From the NCBI GenBank assembly GCA_018821305.1, contig JAHJMN010000058.1:1-40666 (forward strand): a stretch of 40,666 nt of DNA. The letters run 5' to 3'. Below are positions 2,470 through 40,666 of the stretch, piece after piece. The translations under genes and the position numbers were made by a program. This DNA comes from Myxococcota bacterium. GTDB lineage: Bacteria > Myxococcota_A > Polyangia > HGW-17. A model generated the notes under the pieces. It was not told where the DNA came from and did not search any database. It saw only the letters and a program-made list of their open reading frames with translations. Every line of letters starts with the position of its first letter. Positions within the stretch are counted from its first letter, which is position 1.

Positions 2470-2530
2470 GTTCGTGGCCTTTCAGGATTTTGAATAAAAT
2501 CTTTATCCAAGCGAATTTCAGGACACGAAC
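2470..2530 (-). repeat. Family A repeat, short degenerate copy
   Basis: A 61-base copy with perfect 7-base ends GTTCGTG / CACGAAC and the internal hairpin region GGATTTTGAATAAAATC. It is a diverged member of the short form of the intergenic family A described at 33577. Confidence 0.7.
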
Positions 2531-3143: not shown

Positions 3144-3222
3144 GGCTCTGGTAAGTTTTTTTTTTTTGTTACTGTCCTGAAATACAGGTTTTCAAATTTT
3201 TTGCCCAATTTTTGCTCAGGAC

Positions 3223-3312
3223 TTTCACTGTTTTCAAAGAAAACAGTTGTCGTCTAAGCGAATTGCGTAGCAAATCGGCATGCGGGACGATTTCCTGCGG
3301 AAATACGTTTTA
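3223..3312. repeat. Family C nested palindromic element, copy 1 (90 bases)
   Basis: Inserted inside the family A copy. It has two hairpins: ACTGTTTTC-AAA-GAAAACAGT and ATTTCC-TGC-GGAAAT, with an extra imperfect palindrome (CGAATTGCGTAGCAAATCG) between them that copy 2 lacks. It is flanked by a possible three-base direct repeat GAC/GAC, absent from uninterrupted A copies, which suggests target-site duplication. Confidence 0.75.
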
Positions 3313-3353
3313 GACAGTAACCGCAAGGTGTTGAATTTATTGTAGTGGCCTGT

Positions 3354-3416
3354 CTCTCACTGTTTTCAATGAAAACAGTTGCCGACTTTGACGATTTCCT
3401 TCGGAAATACGTCTTA
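3354..3416. repeat. Family C nested palindromic element, copy 2 (63 bases)
   Basis: Second insertion in the same A copy and the same orientation as copy 1. Shares TCACTGTTTTCAA, GAAAACAGTTG, GACGATTTCC and CGGAAATACGT with it; the first hairpin keeps its nine-pair stem while the loop changes from AAA to AAT. It is flanked by a possible two-base repeat GT/GT. Confidence 0.75.
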
Positions 3417-3465
3417 GTTAGGATTTTTAATAAAATCCTTCGCGAAGCGAATTACAGGACACGAA

Positions 3466-5196
3466 CTATTTTGAAGAAGCGGAATTTAGTTCCTTCAACC
3501 TTTTTTTAGCGGCAGGAATCTGAAGAGCATCAGGATAATTTTTCAAGAAAGATGTCAAAGCTTTTTTCTCACTTCCCGTAGCCCCCTGCTTTCTGTATAC
3601 CCTTACGAGTCCCCAGGCGGCTTCTTTTGCAAGACTTCCCTTTGGTGAACTATTGAGATATTTAAGATAGTTAATGCGGGCGGAGCCAGGGTCATTTAGT
3701 TGTTCCAATTGTATTTCACCTATACTTACAAGACTGACAACAGAAAGACTATGATACGGATAGGCAGCAATTAATTTTTTGTATACTGACACCGCTTCAT
3801 TCCAGTTTTTTCTCAATTTCAACTTCCGGGCTTCACGGAAGAGTTCAAGGGCTGTAAATTCCTTATTCCTTATTGATTTTTCCACAACGGGGATATCATC
3901 TTCTATTTGACTTATCATTATTGGTGGAATTTTTTGCTCTTTGGGGTTTTCTATTCTCTGATTTTGAACGGGGACAGGTCGAACTATTTTCTTTGTTCCT
4001 GTTTTTTTATCCTTATCCTGGTTTTTCTTAACAATATTTTTCACATCAAGCGGTGCAAAAACTGGAAAATCATCTCCAGTTTCTGGCTCTTTAGTTTTCT
4101 TTTCAATATTACCTGCGTACCTTGAAGCAGTCTCCATTTTCAACTGTGCGCTGATAAAATTTCTTCCTTCACGTATTTCAATACTTTTCTCCCAGTCTTC
4201 GTGACCATCAAGACTCATTCTTAAAGTTCGAACTCCCGTTTTCAGTGTAACGACCATAGGGGTGTAACCAATACTCATGCCATCATGGATAACTCTGGCC
4301 CCTGGAGGTGTACTTTCCAACTCCAGTTTTCCATTGCTTGATTCTGAAAACTTCTCTGCCAGCCTCAGCCGGATAGATAGTTTGGATAACTCATTTTCTT
4401 CAATACTGGCTACTTTCATATCTGACGTACTTAGCGTCATCGAACTGGAAACCAGAACACCAACTTCATCTTTTTTAGCAACCTTTACTTTTCCCCGTAA
4501 CACGGTTATCCTGTCAGTATCACTTTCATGTCTTACTTCAAATATTGTTCCTACAACAACAATTCTTGAATTTTTTGTCCTCACAACAAACAGAGGATCC
4601 CCGGATTTCCTATCGACAACATTCAAAATATTGCCCTTATTAATGTGCACAACCACTTTTTCTACCGAATTTTCTGAAACTGTAATCTCACTACCGGGAT
4701 AAATAAGAATTCGAGAAATCCCACCGACGGTAATGACTGCTGGTGTTTTATTTGTTGTGATTTTTGTCCCTGCTGTAACAGTTTCCCCCGTAGAGGACAA
4801 TGACATATCCGAAATCAACAGTACTCTTCCATCTTTAGCTTTGACCCCAGGTAAAAACTTTAAAATTGCAAAACTCGTGATTACAATGCCAATAATTGCG
4901 GCTGCTATCAGGAAATATTTTTTATTCTCTACTTTTTTTCGAGAAGTTTTATCATTTACTTCAACAGGGGCCTCAAGTTTTCCAAGAACATCATTTATTA
5001 TACTTCGCCTTGTAACATCATCCACCGGAATTAAGGGGAGATTCCCGTCTTCAAGATTCAATTCTAAAAAAAGCAGCTCATCCACTCGACACTCAGAACA
5101 TGTATTTTTGTGGTTTTTATATTCTGAAGATTGTGCAGAATTCTTTCGTATAAGATCCTGAAAATCATCACATTTAGGATTATTCTTAGTCCACAT
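3466..5196 (-). CDS. Anti-sigma-like FecR/PEGA/TPR inner-membrane protein
   Basis: Predicted single-pass membrane regulator, partner of the ECF sigma factor whose gene it overlaps by 11 bases. The N-terminal cytoplasmic part holds HKNTCSEC (His29-x3-Cys33-x2-Cys36), the zinc-binding anti-sigma signature. A transmembrane helix lies at about 92-115. The periplasmic part has a FecR-like domain (about 120-255, ending near FEVRHESDTDRITVLRGKV), a PEGA domain (about 290-350, STPPGARVIHDGMSIGYTP), a Lys/Pro-rich linker, and a TPR/YbgF-like C-terminus (about 445-570) with a NYP repeat end. The start ATG lies within the end of the sigma gene, suggesting translational coupling. The stop codon TAG is contributed by the abutting family A repeat, so the original C-terminus may have been altered. 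The role as anti-sigma is inferred from motif and context. Confidence 0.8.
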   Translation of the reverse strand: MWTKNNPKCDDFQDLIRKNSAQSSEYKNHKNTCSECRVDELLFLELNLEDGNLPLIPVDDVTRRSIINDVLGKLEAPVEVNDKTSRKKVENKKYFLIAAAIIGIVITSFAILKFLPGVKAKDGRVLLISDMSLSSTGETVTAGTKITTNKTPAVITVGGISRILIYPGSEITVSENSVEKVVVHINKGNILNVVDRKSGDPLFVVRTKNSRIVVVGTIFEVRHESDTDRITVLRGKVKVAKKDEVGVLVSSSMTLSTSDMKVASIEENELSKLSIRLRLAEKFSESSNGKLELESTPPGARVIHDGMSIGYTPMVVTLKTGVRTLRMSLDGHEDWEKSIEIREGRNFISAQLKMETASRYAGNIEKKTKEPETGDDFPVFAPLDVKNIVKKNQDKDKKTGTKKIVRPVPVQNQRIENPKEQKIPPIMISQIEDDIPVVEKSIRNKEFTALELFREARKLKLRKNWNEAVSVYKKLIAAYPYHSLSVVSLVSIGEIQLEQLNDPGSARINYLKYLNSSPKGSLAKEAAWGLVRVYRKQGATGSEKKALTSFLKNYPDALQIPAAKKRLKELNSASSK

Positions 5197-5837: not shown

Positions 5838-5866
5838 GTTCGTGTCCTTAAAATTCAATTTTATCA
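5838..5866 (+). repeat. Family A remnant
   Basis: GTTCGTGTCCTTAAAATTCAATTTTATC resembles the first third of family A with the GC-rich TTCGCTTCGCGAAG block missing. It lies just upstream of the sigma-factor start. It is short, so the assignment is tentative. Confidence 0.4.
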
Positions 5867-5957
5867 AATTTGAGCATGTTTACAAAAATCTGGAAAATCT
5901 GCATTAGAGAACATTGACTATTTAGTGCAATTTGAAGGAAAAATGGATGGAAATTTA

Positions 5958-7016: not shown

Positions 7017-7071
7017 AGTTCGTGTCCTGTAATTCGCTTCGCGAAGGATTTTCGGACAAATTCTAAATCAC
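7017..7071 (+). repeat. Family A repeat, short variant copy
   Basis: Begins AGTTCGTGTCCTGTAATTCG, keeps CTTCGCGAAGGATTTT, then diverges to CGGACAAATTCTAAATCACT. The same alternative middle (TTTTCGGA) occurs in the copy at 15624, so this is a sub-family rather than random decay. It lies in the divergent gap between the outer-membrane protein and macro-domain genes. Confidence 0.7.
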
Positions 7072-7826: not shown

Positions 7827-7883
7827 CAGTGTCCTTTTAGATTTTTATAAATTTCTTCCCGGGGAGAATTTCCGGATACGAAC
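7827..7883 (-). repeat. Family A repeat, strongly degenerate copy
   Basis: AGTGTCCTTTTAGATTTTTATA and CCGGATACGAAC align with the reverse complement of the short form of family A, with the central hairpin decayed. The remainder of the 7730-7902 gap shows no gene. Confidence 0.5.
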
Positions 7884-8462: not shown

Positions 8463-8519
8463 ATGACTTAACCTTCATCCCTGATGGACGGCATAACTTT
8501 CGACTCCCAAGGAGGCCCC

Positions 8520-11126
8520 ATGGCGCTAGGAACAGTTCTCATAATTGACAACGAGGTTTCATTCGTTAAGAACGTTAAAGATTCTCTTCAAGAACTTGGC
8601 TACACTGTTGAAATTCAGGAAGACGGAGTTTCTGGACTTCAGGCAGTTAAAGACCTGATGCCTGCTGCTGTTATTCTATGTGCTGAAGTTCCTAAAATGA
8701 GCGGCTATGCAGTAATTACTAGAATAAAGAAAAATCCAGAACTGCTTAGTATTCCAGTGATGATTACTTCCGCTGAAGCCACGGAAGAAACATTCAAAAG
8801 GCATAGCGAACTTAAAAACCGTGCGGAATCATATATGTTTAAGCAGGGTTTCGAGATTAACAATTTTGTCGCCGAGTTCAAAAAAATGATGAACTCCGGA
8901 GAAGTTGATTCCCTTACATCAGAATTTTCTGATTTCCCAGACTTTGGTGATATTGTTGACGATATTGACAAAGAAACCAATGCAGCCCTGGATGATGTAA
9001 TTGAAGGAGCATTCTCTGACCCTGCTCCCGAACAATCAGAAGAGCCTGTATTTTTCCCATCCGGTGAAATTGAAGCAATCGCTGATGATGAACCTGAAAT
9101 CTCAACAAATTCAGATTCCCCTGAACTTGTAAATCCAGGGGAATCAGTTGAAATTGAAGTAGCGGAGTCAGAACCTACACCCGTGCCTGAGCCAGAATCT
9201 CAGGAGCCTACACCAGTCCCAGAACCAGAAACTCAGGCGGAGCCTACACCAGTCCCAGAACCAGAACCACAACAGGAAGTGTCTGAACAATATGAAAACT
9301 TTGATATTTCTATTGATGATGCTGTTCCTGGAACAGTTGCTCAGGAAATGTCGGAAGAAATAATACCAGAGCAGCCATCTGAAGTTTCCATGAGTGCAAG
9401 CCTTGGGCTTGATGAAATAGTTGAAGAAACGTCAAAACTTAACAACGACGTCCTGCTTCAAATTGAAGAACTTAAAAAAGAAAAGGAAATGCTTTCACGG
9501 GAAATTACTCAGTTGAAAGCTGGTTCCGGAACTGCCACGCAGTTTTCAAAAGAGAGAGAATTTCTTAATCTCAGAGAAACTATTAATAAAAAAGAACGTG
9601 AAATAATCGATCTCAGATCAGAACTTGATGAAAAAGATCAGCAGATTCTCCAGAAAAAGAACAAAATTCGTGAACTGGAAAGATCCAAAGCTGATATTGA
9701 GGACTCAATCCTTAATCACGAAAGAAGTGAAGTTGAACTCAATGAATCCCTTTCCGGTGCCCGGGATGAAATAGAGTCACTCAAATCTACAATTGAAACA
9801 CTTAAAAGCGAACTCGAAAACGCTAAAAATGAAATAATTACGCTTAAATCAAACCTGGAAACAGCCCTCAGAGAGATTGAGAATCTTAAGGTAGAGCATG
9901 CTCAGGAGATTGAGCGACGCAACAATATACATGTTGGCGAAATTGCAAACCTTAAGTCTAAACATGAAAAAGAGACTGAGGATCTCAACAACAAATACAC
10001 TAGTGAAATAAATGACTTGAACTCCAAATACACCGGTGAAATTGAAGAACTCAAGTCTGAGCATGCTCAAACTGTTGAAACAATGAGCAGTTCATTTGCT
10101 TCTGAAAAATCTGATTTAATTTCAAATAACGAGAATACTATAAATACTCTCAATGCAGCCCATGCAGACGAACTTGAGCGACTTACTAACGAACATACTG
10201 GTCTCGTTATCAATCTTAAACACTCTCATGAGGAAGCTGTCAACTCTCTCAATTCAAATCATGCTCAGGAAATCGAAAATCTTAATAACGAACATGCCGT
10301 GGCAATGGCCAAAGCAAAGGAAGCACATGATGAGGAAACTCAAAACCTCATCGCAGCCCACGAAGCTCTAGTTTCAGACATTAACACCAAGCACGCTCAG
10401 GAAATTGAGAATCTTAACACCGAGCATGCCACGGCAATGGCCGAGGCAAAAGCAACATATGAAGAGGAAACTCAAAACCTCATCGCAGCCCACGAAGCTC
10501 TGGTTTCTGATCTCAAAGCTAAAAATGTTCAGGAAATCGAAAATCTTAATAATGAACATGCTGGTCTGGTCGCAACAATAAGATCTGAAAATGAAGAACT
10601 TGTTGCCAATCTTCGCGGTGAACATGCTCAGGAAATTGAAAATATCAACACTGAACATGCTCAGGAAATTTCTAATCTTAATCAAGCTCATACTGAAGAA
10701 AATGAGCGTCTTAATAATGAACACACAGGTAAGGTTATTAATCTCAAAAACAAACATGAATCTGAGATTGAAAATCTTAAGGCGGAACATGCTCAGAATG
10801 TTGAAAATATTGAGAGTGAAAATGCCGCAACGCTGGCTGATCTTAACCTTCAACATGACACTTTGAAAAATCAACTTGAAACTGCAATTTCAGGTCTTGA
10901 ACAGGAAAAAGAGCAACTTACGGGCAAAGTCTTTGATCTTGAACAATTAAAAATGCGTAATGAAACTGAAATAGAGGAATTACGTGAAAACATCGCTGAC
11001 CTTGAAAGTCAGCTTGAAAATGCTCTTGCGGGAATCGCAACTGACAATGATGTTGCCAGGAAAGCGATTGCTTCTCTTTCTTCAGCTCTTACTGCCCTCA
11101 ATGATCGCTTCAATTCAAAAGAATAA
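8520..11126 (+). CDS. AglZ/FrzS-like pseudo-receiver and long coiled-coil protein
   Basis: Resembles Myxococcus AglZ and FrzS, cytoplasmic polarity proteins of gliding and twitching motility with an N-terminal receiver fold and a long coiled coil. Residues about 4-118 are the receiver domain: VLIIDNE, PKMSGY, and K108 at the conserved Lys position. The usual phospho-accepting Asp is replaced by Cys54 (AVILCAEVP), so it should be a pseudo-receiver working by protein contact. An acidic Pro/Glu-rich linker (about 130-280) follows, then a continuous coiled coil (about 300-845) rich in E, L, N and K, including tandem 44-residue repeats. The start at 8520 (12 codons after an alternative ATG) is chosen for its AAGGAGG. 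The dGTPase gene follows after 26 bases. No Frz, Mgl or Agl partner is in the window, so a motility role is inference. Confidence 0.8.
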   Translation: MALGTVLIIDNEVSFVKNVKDSLQELGYTVEIQEDGVSGLQAVKDLMPAAVILCAEVPKMSGYAVITRIKKNPELLSIPVMITSAEATEETFKRHSELKNRAESYMFKQGFEINNFVAEFKKMMNSGEVDSLTSEFSDFPDFGDIVDDIDKETNAALDDVIEGAFSDPAPEQSEEPVFFPSGEIEAIADDEPEISTNSDSPELVNPGESVEIEVAESEPTPVPEPESQEPTPVPEPETQAEPTPVPEPEPQQEVSEQYENFDISIDDAVPGTVAQEMSEEIIPEQPSEVSMSASLGLDEIVEETSKLNNDVLLQIEELKKEKEMLSREITQLKAGSGTATQFSKEREFLNLRETINKKEREIIDLRSELDEKDQQILQKKNKIRELERSKADIEDSILNHERSEVELNESLSGARDEIESLKSTIETLKSELENAKNEIITLKSNLETALREIENLKVEHAQEIERRNNIHVGEIANLKSKHEKETEDLNNKYTSEINDLNSKYTGEIEELKSEHAQTVETMSSSFASEKSDLISNNENTINTLNAAHADELERLTNEHTGLVINLKHSHEEAVNSLNSNHAQEIENLNNEHAVAMAKAKEAHDEETQNLIAAHEALVSDINTKHAQEIENLNTEHATAMAEAKATYEEETQNLIAAHEALVSDLKAKNVQEIENLNNEHAGLVATIRSENEELVANLRGEHAQEIENINTEHAQEISNLNQAHTEENERLNNEHTGKVINLKNKHESEIENLKAEHAQNVENIESENAATLADLNLQHDTLKNQLETAISGLEQEKEQLTGKVFDLEQLKMRNETEIEELRENIADLESQLENALAGIATDNDVARKAIASLSSALTALNDRFNSKE
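10266..10529 (+). repeat. In-frame tandem 132-base repeat in the coiled-coil gene
   Basis: Units 10266-10397 and 10398-10529 are highly similar (shared GAGGAAACTCAAAACC and ATCGCAGCCCACGAAGCTCT) and encode 44 residues each. A third, shortened unit starts at 10530 with the same CAGGAAATCGAAAATCTTAA. The period is not a multiple of seven (44 = 6x7 + 2), as expected for hendecad-type or stutter-containing coiled coils (44 = 4x11). Confidence 0.85.
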
Positions 11127-15623: not shown

Positions 15624-15687
15624 TAGTTCGTATCCTGTAATCCGCTTCGCGAAGGTTTTCGGAAAATTCCTGACAGGACATTCACTA
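15624..15687 (+). repeat. Family A repeat, short variant copy
   Basis: TAGTTCGTATCCTGTAATCC, then CTTCGCGAAGGTTTTCGGAAAATTCC and TGACAGGACATTCACTA. It shares the TTTTCGGA middle with the copy at 7017 and keeps a TTTTC/GAAAA hairpin there. Confidence 0.8.
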
Positions 15688-17206: not shown

Positions 17207-17349
17207 TAGTTCGTTTCCTGTAATTCGCTTCGCGAAGCATTTTATTAAAAATCCTATCCAGACACTAGTAATATTTTCAGCACCTTGCGGTGTCTATCCG
17301 GCCTTTAAAGAAAGTTGAAAACCTTGTTCTTCCGAATTTCCGGATAGAC
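17207..17349 (+). repeat. Family A repeat, long diverged copy inside the mod operon
   Basis: Starts TAGTTCGTTTCCTGTAATTCG, continues through TTCGCGAAGCATTTTATTAA, CACTAGTAATATTTTCAGCACC and TTGCGG, then ends in a perfect 10-base inverted repeat GTCTATCCGG (17292-17301) / CCGGATAGAC (17340-17349). The end abuts the modA stop codon. In this copy the distal hairpin has been replaced relative to the copy at 33577. Confidence 0.8.
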
Positions 17350-19674: not shown

Positions 19675-19817
19675 GTTGAAAGTTTTTTGTTCCAGTACAG
19701 ACTAAAAAGTACCATAATGTTTGCCATCGCGTGGGATTTTTTGCGAGTTTTGTTTTTTCCCACAAAAAGTAGTACATGAGTTGCAGTATGCTTCACTAAA
19801 AAATAATTGGAGTGTTT

Positions 19818-22295
19818 ATGTTCAGTGATTTCAATGAATTGGCAAGCATTATCGGTGGTTCTTTCCATGAAAATTTCTCTTTCAACAGCAACCCTGTTTT
19901 TAAAATAGATTCCAGAGCTGTAAGTCAAGGTGGCGTATTTATTGCCATGAAAGGCGAACGTACTGATGGTCACAGATACGTTGATGATGCTCTTTCTCGA
20001 GGCGCGACCTGCGTGATTGTAAGTGACGAAGAAATCTACCGTAGTCATAAGCAATGTATCTTTGTAAAAGATACATTGAAGGCTCTCGGTAACCTTGCAG
20101 CTCATAAAAGACGACTTTTTATGGGGCGTGTTATAGGAATTACTGGTTCCAACGGTAAAACTATTGTCAAAGATGCCCTGGTTCGGATACTAAGTAGAGA
20201 TTTCAAAGTCAGTGGAAATACCGGTAGTTATAACTCCCGGTTAGGTGTTCCCCTTGCAATGCTCAGTTACAGTGATGATGCAGATTTCTGGATCTGTGAA
20301 GCTGGTATCAGTTCTCCAGGAGATATGGAAATCCTTGAAGGGATTATCAAACCCGACATAGGCATACTTACCAATATTGGTTTAGCTCATATTGGAAGTT
20401 TCAAAGATCGCAGAGAGCTTTATGAAGAAAAAATGATGCTCTTTAAAAATTCAACTGGCTGGCTTTTGCTTCCGGATACCGAACCCCTCGTTAAGGAATC
20501 TGAGTTTAAAACAAAAGTCTATTATTCCGGGATAACCAATGGGGATTTACCATACTTGAAGACAAAAACTCTTGTGGAAGGTGCTTTGCTCGTAGAAGTA
20601 AAGTTCCCATCTGGAAATCTCAGACCGCTCCGTCTTACGACACCATCTTCTGACATTGCTATGGATATTGAAATAGCCATTGAAGCTGCCTGGCTATCCG
20701 GAATGGACGAAGCTACGGTCATCAAAGCCGCAGGCAATCTTGGTGGTGGCTCCACGCGACAGGAAATATGGCAGTCTCCAGATGGTATAACAATAATTAA
20801 TGACGCATGTAGTTCGGATCCCATAAGTGTTGAAAGTGCCTTGAGAACAATGGATCTTCTTTCGGATCGCGAAGGGAAAAAGATCTTCGTTTTTGCAGGA
20901 ATGACCGAACTTGGGGAAATGAATGAGAGTGTACATCGGCAGATCGGTTTGGCATGTGCTCTTCATGGAGTTACACACTTATTTATTCAGGATTTAAAAG
21001 AGCTTGATATAACTATTCAAACTTATTTAAACCACCACGAAGAAGGCTTAGTCACTAAATTTACTGATCTTTTGACCGTTAAAACTGAACTAATCCGACT
21101 TCTTGATTCAAGGGATATTATCCTTTTTAAAGGACCCCGAAAAGCCAATATAAGCAAAGTTGCTGAATATGTTTTTGAAGCTATTGCACCTAACAGACTT
21201 ATTACTGACCTTGGTGCTGTTTTTGAAAACATTAATATTTTTAAGAAATTGACGGGCAAGGAAACTAAAATTCTTGCCATGGTTAAAGCCCTTGCATACG
21301 GAAGTGAAATGATTCGTATTGCCAGGGAACTTGAAGCCATGGGTGTCGACATGCTTGGAGTAAGCACCCCTGATGAAGGAGCACGATTACGTCAACAAAC
21401 ATCCATGCCAGTTCTCGTAATGGTTGCCAGCCCGGAAGAGGCTTTTAAAATAGTACGACATAATCTTATCCCCGTGGTATGGAATATTGAACTGGCAAAA
21501 GCTCTTGAAAATGAACTGGGTCCTGAACAAATTGGGCATATTCATATTAAAGTGGATACGGGTATGGGAAGAATGGGTTTGCTTCCGTCAGAAATCCCAA
21601 ATTTTCTTGAGGAATTAAAGCAACTTAAAAAAATTCGCATTTCGGGTCTTATGACTCACTTTTCCTGTGCAGATGACCCATCAATGGATGATCATACCCT
21701 CCGTCAGATCCAGTCTTTTAATGAAGTGTATGACTTTATGTTAAAAAACGGACATTCCGATTTAGTACGCCACGCTTCAGCAACCAGCGGCATAATAAGA
21801 TTTCCAAATGCTCACTACGACATGGTTCGCGTGGGCCTGGGACTCTATGGACTTTACCCCAGCGCAAACCTCATGAATGACGTATCCCTGCAACTTGCAG
21901 TAACACTTGTTTCTCGCCTCATTGCAATCCGCACACTGCCTGTTGGTACAAAAATTGGTTATGGCGCTACTTTCGAGGTTAAGAACCGTGAAATACGAGC
22001 GGGAGTAATCCCTATAGGCTATCATGATGGAATTTCCTGGCGCCTTGGAGGAAAGGGCACCTTTTTTATTCATGGAAAACGCGCGCCTATACTCGGTAGA
22101 GTTAGTATGGATAGTATTTTAGTTGATGTTTCGAACATTGAAGGTGTGAGTTGTGGAGATGAAGTTTTAATTTATGGAGTTCAGGATGGTTTTATGCGTC
22201 GACCAGAAGATCTTGCTGATGATGCAGGAACCATCGTTTACGAGGTTCTGGCTTCCACCGGCCCAAGAGTACAACGAATTTTCCGTGGACGTTGA
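19818..22295 (+). CDS. Bifunctional MurF ligase / alanine racemase fusion
   Basis: Cytoplasmic peptidoglycan precursor enzyme that makes D-Ala (racemase half) and adds D-Ala-D-Ala to UDP-MurNAc-tripeptide (MurF half). MurF: residues about 1-455, with the nucleotide-binding GSNGKT at 110-115 and an IINDA segment near 328. The loop reads GKTIVKD, as in the MurF-Alr fusions known from Bacteroidetes, rather than GKTTVKE. Alanine racemase: about 460-825, with the PLP Lys490 in VKALAYGS and the second catalytic Tyr region IGYGATFEV, then GYHDG and GRVSMDS. ATG at 19818 has GGAG at the right distance; a GTG two codons earlier is less likely. Acetate kinase follows after 146 bases. No ddl gene is nearby. 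Confidence 0.93.
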   Translation: MFSDFNELASIIGGSFHENFSFNSNPVFKIDSRAVSQGGVFIAMKGERTDGHRYVDDALSRGATCVIVSDEEIYRSHKQCIFVKDTLKALGNLAAHKRRLFMGRVIGITGSNGKTIVKDALVRILSRDFKVSGNTGSYNSRLGVPLAMLSYSDDADFWICEAGISSPGDMEILEGIIKPDIGILTNIGLAHIGSFKDRRELYEEKMMLFKNSTGWLLLPDTEPLVKESEFKTKVYYSGITNGDLPYLKTKTLVEGALLVEVKFPSGNLRPLRLTTPSSDIAMDIEIAIEAAWLSGMDEATVIKAAGNLGGGSTRQEIWQSPDGITIINDACSSDPISVESALRTMDLLSDREGKKIFVFAGMTELGEMNESVHRQIGLACALHGVTHLFIQDLKELDITIQTYLNHHEEGLVTKFTDLLTVKTELIRLLDSRDIILFKGPRKANISKVAEYVFEAIAPNRLITDLGAVFENINIFKKLTGKETKILAMVKALAYGSEMIRIARELEAMGVDMLGVSTPDEGARLRQQTSMPVLVMVASPEEAFKIVRHNLIPVVWNIELAKALENELGPEQIGHIHIKVDTGMGRMGLLPSEIPNFLEELKQLKKIRISGLMTHFSCADDPSMDDHTLRQIQSFNEVYDFMLKNGHSDLVRHASATSGIIRFPNAHYDMVRVGLGLYGLYPSANLMNDVSLQLAVTLVSRLIAIRTLPVGTKIGYGATFEVKNREIRAGVIPIGYHDGISWRLGGKGTFFIHGKRAPILGRVSMDSILVDVSNIEGVSCGDEVLIYGVQDGFMRRPEDLADDAGTIVYEVLASTGPRVQRIFRGR

Positions 22296-24363: not shown

Positions 24364-24528
24364 TTAAATATCCTCCATAGTGGTTAGGTACAATTAGGTT
24401 TAGCACCAGATTACCCCCTTGCAATGATAATTATTATGTATTTAAATTTCTAAACCACTTTTAAATTAAACTTAGTGTAAGAGGCTCTTAACAGGGATTC
24501 AAGTAAACAGGGACAGGTCATAAACATC

Positions 24529-24652
24529 TATACCGCTTGCGGAGTAATGCGATAGTGAACAAATTTCAGGAAATGCTACAGAAATGAGCCCCTGATTGTC
24601 CTGTTACTGCTACTGATTTCCTGTTTTCCTGAATTTCTGTCTGCCTGTAATT
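24529..24652 (-). repeat. Family B repeat, partial copy
   Basis: TATACCGCTTGCGGAGTAATGCGATAGTGAAC starts the element, followed by TTTCAGGAAATGC, GAGCCCCTGATTGTCCTGTT and ACTGCTACTGATTTCC, each matching the other copies. The opposite end is not resolved. Flanking sequence also echoes the 19278 copy: CATAAACATCTA matches (reversed) TAGATGTTTATG there, and TTCACTAACCGATCA at 24692 matches (reversed) TGATCGGTTAGTGAA at 19454. The rest of the 24364-24716 gap has no gene. Confidence 0.7.
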
Positions 24653-33576: not shown

Positions 33577-33722
33577 TAGTTCGTGTCCTGTAATTCGCTT
33601 CGCGAAGAAATTTATTAAAATTTCTAACAGGCCACTAGTAATATTTTCAACACCTTGAGGTTACTGTCCTGAGCAAAAATTGGGCGAAAAATTTGATTTT
33701 TGGTATTTCAGGACAGTAACTA
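33577..33722 (+). repeat. Family A repeat, best full-length copy (146 bases)
   Basis: Reference copy. Imperfect terminal inverted repeats TAGTTCGTGTCCTGTAATTC and (reversed) TAGTTACTGTCCTGAAATAC, bounded by TA at both ends. Inside are TTCGCTTCGCGAAG, the hairpin GAAATTTATTAAAATTTC, CTAACAGGCCACTAG, a CAACACCTTGAGG segment, and a second hairpin whose 13-base arms GTTACTGTCCTGA / TCAGGACAGTAAC are perfect. The short form ends at CAGGCCACTA. The element has no open frame of note. Confidence 0.88.
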
Positions 33723-33965
33723 TACCGCTTCCTTAGTAATACGATTGTGAGTTATTATAAAGAAAATCTTCAGGAATAAGCCACTGATTGTCCTGTTCCT
33801 GCTACTGATTACCTGAATACCAGATTTATTTTAACAGGAACTCAGGCAGTCAACAAACAGGAACAGTGTCAGTGCGTATCTATTCAATATCAATGGTAAA
33901 TTACAAGGACCAGAAGCAAATATTCACTTTTTAGATTTCGATCCTTTTACTCATGAAGCGGTCTA
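33721..33965 (-). repeat. Family B repeat, complete copy (245 bases)
   Basis: Begins TATACCGCTTCCTTAGTAAT and ends (reversed) TAGACCGCTTCATGAGTAAA, so the ends are inverted repeats bounded by TA. It starts exactly where the family A copy ends. The middle matches the 36899 copy in inverse orientation (GATTGTCCTGTTCCTGCTAC; ATTCACTTTT; TTTCGATCCTTTTACTC). With family A it fills the 33465-33978 gap. Confidence 0.82.
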
Positions 33966-34812: not shown

Positions 34813-34902
34813 AAAGATACAATATTCAATTTCCATTCTGTGTCAATCTATTCAAAGAGGACTCTTGAAAACTCAACAGAAAACAAGTATATCCTGAGTA
34901 AG

Positions 34903-34967
34903 TAGTTCGTGTCCTGTAATTCGCTTCGCGAAGGATTTTATTAAAAATCCTAACAGGCCACGTACTA
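34903..34967 (+). repeat. Family A repeat, clean short copy (65 bases)
   Basis: TAGTTCGTGTCCTGTAATTCG, TTCGCGAAGGATTTTATTAA, AAATCCTAACAGGCCACG, then TACTA. It is a single long imperfect palindrome, with the GGATTTT-ATTA-AAAATCC stem intact. Lies in the divergent gap before the C25 protease gene. Confidence 0.85.
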
Positions 34968-34974
34968 AGTAGAG

Positions 34975-35120: not shown

Positions 35121-36839
35121 ATGAATCGATTTTTTTTATTTTCCATTATTTTAGCCTTTTTATCTATAGCATGCGACCCCATTGATTCAGACTCAAATAA
35201 CGCTTCGGATGCTTCTGTAAATAACTCTAATAACACAAACAACACCCTGAATAATATAAATAATCAATCCGATGGGGGTCAGGATGTTGAAAGTGATTCT
35301 GGTACCATTAACCCAGCCTGGTGGCAGGAAGATGAACTCGGTCGACAAACTGAAGGCAATATCCTCGGAAGTGATGAAGGCGAACTTGTCATTGTTACAA
35401 CCCAAGCCCTTGCTGAAACATGGACTGTATATGCCGGTATTAAGACCGGTGAAGGCATTTTTACTGAGGTGGTAACCGTTGAATCCATTGTATCAAACTA
35501 TCCTGGTGCTGATGACGCGGAAAAAGTTAGGAATTTCCTCATTGAAAGATACAATAACGGTTCACTGAGGTTTGTTTTAATGGGGGGAGATGCTGGACAT
35601 GTACCGTTCAGACGCGTTGAGAACTACATTTACGCCACAGAAGAATTTACTTCAAATGGTCCAAGTCAGTTGTATTTTTCTAATCTCTCAGCAGATTTTG
35701 ATGCCGATGGCGATGGTATCTATGGCGAAATGAATGATGATCTTACTCTTGAACAATCCCGGCAGACCAATATTGCCGTTGGGCGAATCAGTGTCTCAAA
35801 TACTGAAGAGATCGAAAACTACATTCAGAAATATATCGCATATGTAACTGTCCCACAGGGTCGTATTACCTTCCCTCTTCTTTTATCGGATATTGCTTCC
35901 ACAGTTCCATTAATTGGTGATGTTGATGCTGCAGAAGGAGTTGAAGTCACTTTCGATGCTTTTTTCCCTGATATTTTTCACCAGAACGTGCGCAAACTTT
36001 ATGCAACACAAAGTGCTGCTGATCTTTACGACGGTGAAATAATTTCCGTTCAGAAGGTTCATGATGCTCTATCTGACGGTTATGGTATGGTTTTTCACAA
36101 TGGACATGGAGCCCACCGATGGATTACGGATATCCTGAATTCAGATTTCGTTAATTCCCTTGATAACACAATTCCTCCGGTTATGGCCTCGTGCGCCTGC
36201 CTGTCAGGTAATTTTGCAGATAAAGCATCCTCCTCAACTTTTGACGGATGGCAACTTCAAGGTGAGAATGAGGATAGTGCTGCAGAATTATTCATCAACA
36301 GTCCTCATGGTGGAGTCGCCTACATCGGAAATACGGGCACAGGCCTTGGTCCAATTGGAGGTAGTCAATTTCTCCATGCTTTTTATAAAGGAATTTTCGA
36401 AGAAGGTCTGGTTTATATAGGTGAATCATTTAATTACGGCCGCAGCAACTTCCGCTCAATTGATTATTCCCTGGCCTGGATACCGGTAACCATGACCGAT
36501 GATAGTGAATGGTGGACATCCCACGTTATTATTCTGCTGGGAGATCCTTCCCTGCGTATCTGGACGATGAACTTTGAGCGGATTTATCTTGAAACACCAT
36601 TAAAATATGGGCCTGGTTACAACGAGCTCACAGTCACCGTAAAAGATGTCAATGGATCCCCTCTGGAAGGCATCTGGGTTACGGCATCAAAAGGAACTGA
36701 TTTTATTATTAAAAATACCAGTGATTCCGACGGTAAAGTCACTTTCCGCTTTGTACCTGACGGCCCCGGTAACATAAATATAACGGCCTCGAGTGAGAAT
36801 TATTTTTCGACAGTTGTGAAAATTACCCCCGATATATAG
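35121..36839 (+). CDS. Peptidase C25 (gingipain-type) lipoprotein
   Basis: Predicted surface-anchored cysteine protease. Signal peptide with lipobox (LSIAC, Cys18), then a linker of Asn, Ser and Thr (about 24-50), then the C25 catalytic domain (about 85-500): His329 in NGHGAHRW and Cys360 in ASCACLSGNF, the same arrangement as the gingipain dyad. DADGDG (193-198) is a likely calcium site. Residues about 500-572 are an Ig-like C-terminal domain (a common PVT/YTG-type end). The start at 35121 has GGAG; the open frame extends upstream but lacks a signal there. The stop codon TAG (36837-36839) is supplied by the adjacent family A copy. No type IX secretion genes or C-terminal sorting domain are seen; lipidation is the likely anchor. 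Confidence 0.85.
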   Translation: MNRFFLFSIILAFLSIACDPIDSDSNNASDASVNNSNNTNNTLNNINNQSDGGQDVESDSGTINPAWWQEDELGRQTEGNILGSDEGELVIVTTQALAETWTVYAGIKTGEGIFTEVVTVESIVSNYPGADDAEKVRNFLIERYNNGSLRFVLMGGDAGHVPFRRVENYIYATEEFTSNGPSQLYFSNLSADFDADGDGIYGEMNDDLTLEQSRQTNIAVGRISVSNTEEIENYIQKYIAYVTVPQGRITFPLLLSDIASTVPLIGDVDAAEGVEVTFDAFFPDIFHQNVRKLYATQSAADLYDGEIISVQKVHDALSDGYGMVFHNGHGAHRWITDILNSDFVNSLDNTIPPVMASCACLSGNFADKASSSTFDGWQLQGENEDSAAELFINSPHGGVAYIGNTGTGLGPIGGSQFLHAFYKGIFEEGLVYIGESFNYGRSNFRSIDYSLAWIPVTMTDDSEWWTSHVIILLGDPSLRIWTMNFERIYLETPLKYGPGYNELTVTVKDVNGSPLEGIWVTASKGTDFIIKNTSDSDGKVTFRFVPDGPGNINITASSENYFSTVVKITPDI

Positions 36840-36900
36840 TTAATGTCCTGAAATTCGCTTCGCAAAGAATTTTATTAAAAATTCTATCCGGCCACTACTA
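36837..36900 (+). repeat. Family A repeat, short copy overlapping a stop codon
   Basis: TAGTTAATGTCCTGAAATTCG, TTCGCAAAGAATTTTATTAA, AAATTCTATCCGGCCACTAC. The hairpin has GAATTTT/AAAATTC where other copies have GGATTTT/AAAATCC, a compensatory change. The first TAG is the stop of the protease gene. Confidence 0.85.
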
Positions 36901-40529: not shown

Positions 40530-40666
40530 TAGTTACTGTCCTGAAATACCGAAAATCAAATTTTTCGCCCGATTTTTGCTCAGGACAGTAACCGCAAGGT
40601 GTTGAATTTATTATAGTGGCCTGTTAGGATTTTTAATAAAATCCTTCGCGAAGCGAATTACAGGAC
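40530..40666 (-). repeat. Family A repeat, full-length copy cut by the window edge
   Basis: Reverse orientation: TAGTTACTGTCCTGAAATAC, the perfect arm TCAGGACAGTAAC, CGCAAGGTGTTGAATTTATT, GGATTTTTAATAAAATCC and TTCGCGAAGCGAATTACAG, ending at GGAC with the outer end missing beyond the window. Confidence 0.88.

Follow-up and report, generated by a model that had tools for sequence, protein, structure and literature searches.

A double-hairpin MITE family in a Myxococcota genome and its probable partner, a resident ISNCY-type insertion sequence

Results

The window, that is, the whole 40,666-bp stretch of DNA analysed, is the entire contig C75 of a Myxococcota draft genome (5.22 Mb, 216 contigs). 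A full 142-bp MITE is found at 33579 to 33720 (plus strand). It belongs to subclass A1 of a repeat family that we call family A, and it shows 94% identity to the consensus over 142 of 142 positions. Its left hairpin (H1, 33579 to 33635, plus strand) sets the left terminal repeat GTTCGTGTCCTG opposite a degenerate inverted copy, CAGGCCAC. A spacer follows, and then the 61-bp right hairpin (H2, 33660 to 33720, plus strand), in which an inverted copy GTTACTGTCCTG stands opposite the right terminal repeat CAGGACAGTAAC. The first-pass annotation of this DNA had marked an element of about 146 bases at 33577 to 33722. The element is real; that span includes a TA on each side, and the element proper is 142 bp. 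The flanking hexamers are TAGTTA and TATACC, and the target duplication is no longer readable at this copy.

Ten positions in the window had been listed as copies, and each was found to be a family A element or part of one; those at 2470, 3168, 7827 and 40530 are on the minus strand. A full MITE with 99% identity to the consensus is truncated by the contig end (40532 to 40666, minus strand). A full-length, diverged MITE (17209 to 17347, plus strand, 77% identity over 139 bp) has a different right hairpin (GTGTCTATCCGG...CCGGATAGACTCAC), the change being present in both arms. The full MITE at 3168 to 3466 (minus strand) carries an internal B module in each hairpin, at about 3222 to 3313 and 3354 to 3417. 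The short form of 60 to 65 bases, also noticed earlier, recurs as solo left hairpins of 60 to 61 bp. One (34905 to 34965, plus strand, 61 bp, ends GTTCGTGTCCTG / CAGGCCACGTAC) has an exact 6-bp duplication, TAAGTA, on each side (34899 to 34904 and 34966 to 34971). The others lie at 2470 to 2530 (minus strand, 61 bp, ends GTTCGTGTCCTG / GGCCACGAAC) and at 15626 to 15685 (plus strand, 60 bp), the latter between TAACTA and TAAATA (one mismatch). The copy at 36839 to 36900 (plus strand, 85% over 62 bp, ends GTTAATGTCCTG) is either a left-hairpin element or the left half of a full copy. The left part of a decayed copy is present at 7018 to 7066 (plus strand, 90% over 49 bp), and a decayed left-hairpin remnant at 7827 to 7883 (minus strand) was assigned by eye, as it is not a significant BLAST hit. 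A remnant at 5838 to 5888 (plus strand, 86% over 51 bp of the A2 consensus) represents subclass A2, a 153-bp MITE with the same terminal repeats.

The window also contains an 880-aa ORF (8484 to 11126) that combines a response-regulator receiver domain with a long downstream coiled-coil-like repeat region of 33-base (11-residue) period, and an 827-aa fusion of a MurF-like ligase and alanine racemase (19812 to 22295). A second intergenic repeat family, ACCGCTT(N)CGGA(G/A)TAA..., is found at 24528 to 24635 and 33720 to 33827, and near 36900, L112 and L124. These repeats often directly adjoin family A copies, and the first two share 77% identity over 108 bp.

The full family A element is 141 to 142 bp and consists of H1, a spacer of about 20 to 25 bp (TAGTAATAAATTCAACACCTTGCG) and H2. 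It has no transposase gene and carries no gene at all. The terminal inverted repeats are 12 bp long with 10 matching positions, and each end pairs with an inverted copy of its own sequence to form a separate hairpin. This double-hairpin, modular build is uncommon. The element at 33579 to 33720 folds with z = -6.1 relative to shuffled sequences. Subclass A2 has other stems and another spacer on the same plan (z = -4.8 versus shuffles). H1 and H2 are each also found alone, as 61-bp units flanked by their own exact 6-bp duplications (TAAGTA at 34905 to 34965 in the window, TAATTA at L033:2843-2903).

Some copies carry internal modules. The B module is a 65-bp insert (TAAAACGTATTTCC...AAAACAGTGAGAGTC) with 54 occurrences in the genome. 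It is inserted, with what looks like a 2-bp duplication, at TGTC^CTG in H2 of both subclasses or at CTAAC^AGG in H1; some copies (L129, L143, L152) combine the two sites as hybrids. It was considered as a free-living mobile element and rejected, being inside family A elements at 30/30 loci read. The C module (GCGCTCTCGCGNAGCGAAGCGC) is inserted in the spacer of both subclasses and has 22 pattern matches in the genome (L156 to L177). A related palindrome, GTGCTCTCGCGNAGCGAAGCAC, is present alone outside MITEs (L171 to L176).

Genome-wide, the left-hairpin core GTGTCCTGTAATTCGCTTCGCGAA has 290 matches (up to three mismatches) and the reversed pattern none. The right-hairpin core is present in 252 copies, and the terminal repeat GTTNNTGTCCTGNAAT occurs 655 times compared to twice for its reversed-pattern control. 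In 115 related genomes, including one of the same genus, the terminal repeat was found at most twice in any genome, and the exact left-hairpin pattern has no match in 84,980 GTDB species genomes. Family A is a tiny non-coding transposon that has spread to about 300 copies within one bacterial genome. Six contigs (C17, C77, C89, C114, C116 and C117) and the window (position 40666) terminate inside family A copies. Because the MITE breaks the assembly, there are at least as many identical copies as were counted. Among 41 copies examined for gene context, with ORFs called by a simple length rule, 38 are intergenic, although ORFs span 90% of the window. The orientation of the neighbouring genes is mixed (19 co-oriented, 6 convergent and 5 divergent).

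For sequence comparison, 106 left hairpins and 59 full copies were collected from stretches around copies. Because a near-perfect left hairpin was required for sampling, variation in that hairpin is masked. Both ends were read in 80 copies, and 40 of these have an exact 6-bp target duplication (shuffles: mean 5.7, maximum 11); lengths of 3 to 5 and 7 to 10 bp gave next to none in the same copies. The empty-site consensus is TAAWTA, and outside these six positions no clear preference was seen. Among the loci that were read, head-to-tail tandem copies share a single hexamer at about 19 junctions.

A single DDE_Tnp_1 gene was found genome-wide, at the start of contig C216. Its ORF (L094:87-1436) is intact and encodes 450 aa. 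The best profile is ISNCY (NCBIfam NF033593, 1.2e-87), with 294 bits against a curated cut-off of 325 that is not reached; the runner-up is IS5_1 (122 bits). The profiles matched are of ISNCY/IS5/IS1182-type DDE transposases, not of IS630. A DDE arrangement (MDSTTV, GDRGF, RAGVEGNISHLKR) is visible by eye. Among the same 84,980 GTDB species genomes the protein has no confirmed relative. A distant relative with 34% identity, with ISNCY also as its best profile, is found in another genome of the class (L101), where the ends of the element are GTTCSCATCCACAAAC and the 6-bp duplication TAGCTA is exact.

C216 starts inside the IS, and its first bases, used as query, found six other contig ends. At these six ends TAACTA or TATTTA is followed by GTTCGTGTCCTGAAATTAAG, and all six are identical over 31 bases. 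The six identical left junctions indicate about six near-identical IS copies, collapsed by the assembler in the draft. Four of the six junctions abut another element with one hexamer shared. Downstream of the transposase gene stands TATTTCAGGACAGTAAC and then TATTTA; further right ends are followed by TATTTA or TAACTA. Joining C216 to a left-junction contig across an overlap of 84 bp gives an IS length of 1679 bp. This length and the 6-bp duplication fit ISDol1, and the IS may be ISDol1-like. Two loci (L112 on C116, L125 on C154) were considered as second intact copies and rejected as decayed IS fragments. At the start of contig C172 (L118) an IS copy directly follows the stop codon of a gene with an FlgG-like (flagellar rod protein) C-terminus.

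The IS left end GTTCGTGTCCTGAAAT is the same as the MITE left end, and the IS right end TATTTCAGGACAGTAAC the same as the MITE right end. At the left end the identity covers 16 bases from the terminus inward (GAAAT copies), and at the right end 17; it takes in CG versus AC, the two bases that distinguish left from right. Both elements are flanked by 6-bp TANNTA targets. The similarity ends about 16 to 18 bp from each terminus; the MITE is therefore not a simple deletion derivative of the IS. The IS ends do not have the MITE-type hairpins. The description of the ends as MITE-like thus holds, with defined terminal repeats, 6-bp duplications and a partner IS with matching ends. A search for a RAYT or IS630-like transposase sharing these ends had been suggested; the one found is of DDE/ISNCY type and is neither.

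The stem variants reported in the first-pass annotation were recovered among 100 left hairpins: GGATTTT/AAAATCC is commonest (46), followed by GAAATTT/AAATTTC (24), with GAATTTT/AAAATTC in five. In 58 full copies, two-sided changes occur at nine pairs compared to 4.1 in shuffled alignments (0/500), with a covariation score double that of the shuffles. Covariation is above background, and most of the signal comes from a few founder subfamilies. The bulk lies at two pairs that split two large subfamilies (GC/AU 33:24 and UA/AU 36:22), and the remaining covarying pairs represent rare subfamilies. G-U intermediates are absent at the two most variable pairs, 30/45 and 32/43. The markers that define subfamilies in H1, spacer and H2 are combined in many ways, and therefore copies exchange sequence or markers arose more than once. 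Private mutations amount to 0.0086 per site per copy at paired and 0.0070 at unpaired positions, and 24 of 32 private changes at paired sites break the pair. Since private mutations are as common in stems as elsewhere, the fold is not enforced in single copies. It is passed on by source copies and erodes once a copy has inserted. It had been proposed that the paired changes imply selection on, or inheritance of, a folded form: inheritance is borne out, and selection for folding in individual copies finds no support in the private mutations and the founder subfamilies.

Discussion

From the sequence evidence, we consider family A to be a non-autonomous DNA transposon (MITE) that is cross-mobilised by the resident 1679-bp ISNCY-type DDE IS (probability about 0.93). 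The enzyme used by the MITE is almost certainly that of this full-size IS. The IS itself is best assigned to the ISNCY type, its best-scoring profile but below the curated cut-off. The transposase would bind one left and one right MITE end in trans, excise or copy the MITE, and join it to 6-bp staggered cuts at TAAWTA. Head-to-tail chains with one shared hexamer may form because the duplicated hexamer beside an existing copy is reused as a new target. The 142-bp form probably arose by the joining of two smaller palindromic elements into a composite, one being the left-end and the other the right-end hairpin; each hairpin is still found alone with its own duplication. The composite may have prevailed since its outer ends are the same left and right pair as in the IS. 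Solo remnants of a known IS end had been suggested as another reading; the family A copies are units that transposed and bear duplications of their own. The paired stem changes may have been fixed in few source copies, perhaps via template switching within the palindrome, and then amplified.

In addition to mobilisation by the IS, the paired changes could reflect repeated selection for palindromy during transposition, the end hairpins being needed for mobility. We regard this addition as possible but somewhat doubtful. Two subclasses with different interiors follow the same plan of an end facing its own inverted copy, and several two-sided changes separate subfamilies. However, the IS has multiplied although its ends lack such hairpins, template-switch repair of quasi-palindromes yields paired changes without selection, and the independent events are few. 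It is unlikely, going further, that the ends must face their own inverted copies in order to fold and that this architecture, common to both subclasses with their different interiors and to the solo units, lets the MITE out-compete its parent IS, which has about six copies versus hundreds for the MITE. If true, such a build may, for example, offer the transposase two end sequences per end or allow escape from inhibition.

It is very improbable that family A is a host-selected structured RNA or regulatory element (terminator, mRNA stabiliser or riboregulator) that spread secondarily. The folding of both subclasses far better than shuffles, the excess of paired changes and the intergenic placement would fit such a role, but there is no Rfam match in the window at the gathering threshold, private mutations are no rarer at paired sites and mostly break pairs, the two most variable pairs show no G-U intermediates, and the gene context is mixed.

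Still less probable are palindromes of the REP/BIME or REPIN type, mobilised as single-stranded DNA by a RAYT (Y1/HUH) transposase. Transposition of single strands by HUH enzymes makes no target duplication, and REPs make none; exact 6-bp duplications are present here. Three Y1_Tnp genes are found in the genome, but 0/3 are bracketed by family A ends, and at one of them (L031) no family A copy was found within the stretch examined. Family A elements are short, intergenic and palindromic and occur in doublets and clusters as REPINs do (PMC3116915); the 6-bp duplications and a DDE element with identical ends in the same genome refute this origin. The least probable reading, an IS630/mariner-type (Correia/NEMIS-like) MITE with a TA duplication, would account for short, high-copy, intergenic copies that appear flanked by TA...TA, but IS630 duplicates TA only and the 6-bp duplication refutes it, the TA belonging to the TAAWTA target and the partner transposase matching ISNCY/IS5/IS1182-type DDE profiles instead. 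REP/BIME and IS630-type MITEs, named earlier as the closest concepts, are thus set aside on the duplication length, the Y1 genes and the ISNCY-type DDE partner.

The mobilisation of family A by its resident IS has a parallel in the 187-bp MITE of Microcystis, which was matched to an ISL3 element and has an 8-bp duplication (PMC11448079). Both MITEs are short, non-coding, high-copy and stem-loop forming, and in both the terminal repeats and duplication length match a resident full IS. Family A differs in its IS type, in the 6-bp rather than 8-bp duplication, in its several hundred copies, and in having two separate hairpins from left and right ends and nested internal modules. Its partner resembles ISNCY elements (NF033593) in transposase profile, the 1679-bp length and 6-bp duplication, and differs in scoring below the curated cut-off. 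REPINs and BIMEs with RAYTs (PMC3116915) share paired palindromes, intergenic position, clusters or tandem arrays and one-genome expansions with family A, which in contrast has target duplications of 6 bp, a DDE and not a Y1 partner, and ends that are defined terminal repeats. Correia/NEMIS and other IS630-type MITEs are likewise small with inverted terminal repeats and a TA-rich target, but their TA duplication contrasts with 6-bp TAAWTA and the transposase is unrelated. In the literature searched, which gave partial coverage, no MITE reported for an ISNCY-type element was found.

It was concluded that family A is an ordinary kind of element, a MITE of an ISNCY-type IS, with an unusual two-hairpin build. 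What had been an unnamed palindromic repeat is thereby defined as a transposon system whose two partners reside in the same genome. It also calls for caution, as stem covariation in a repeat family can reflect the history of a few source copies and not selection for RNA structure.
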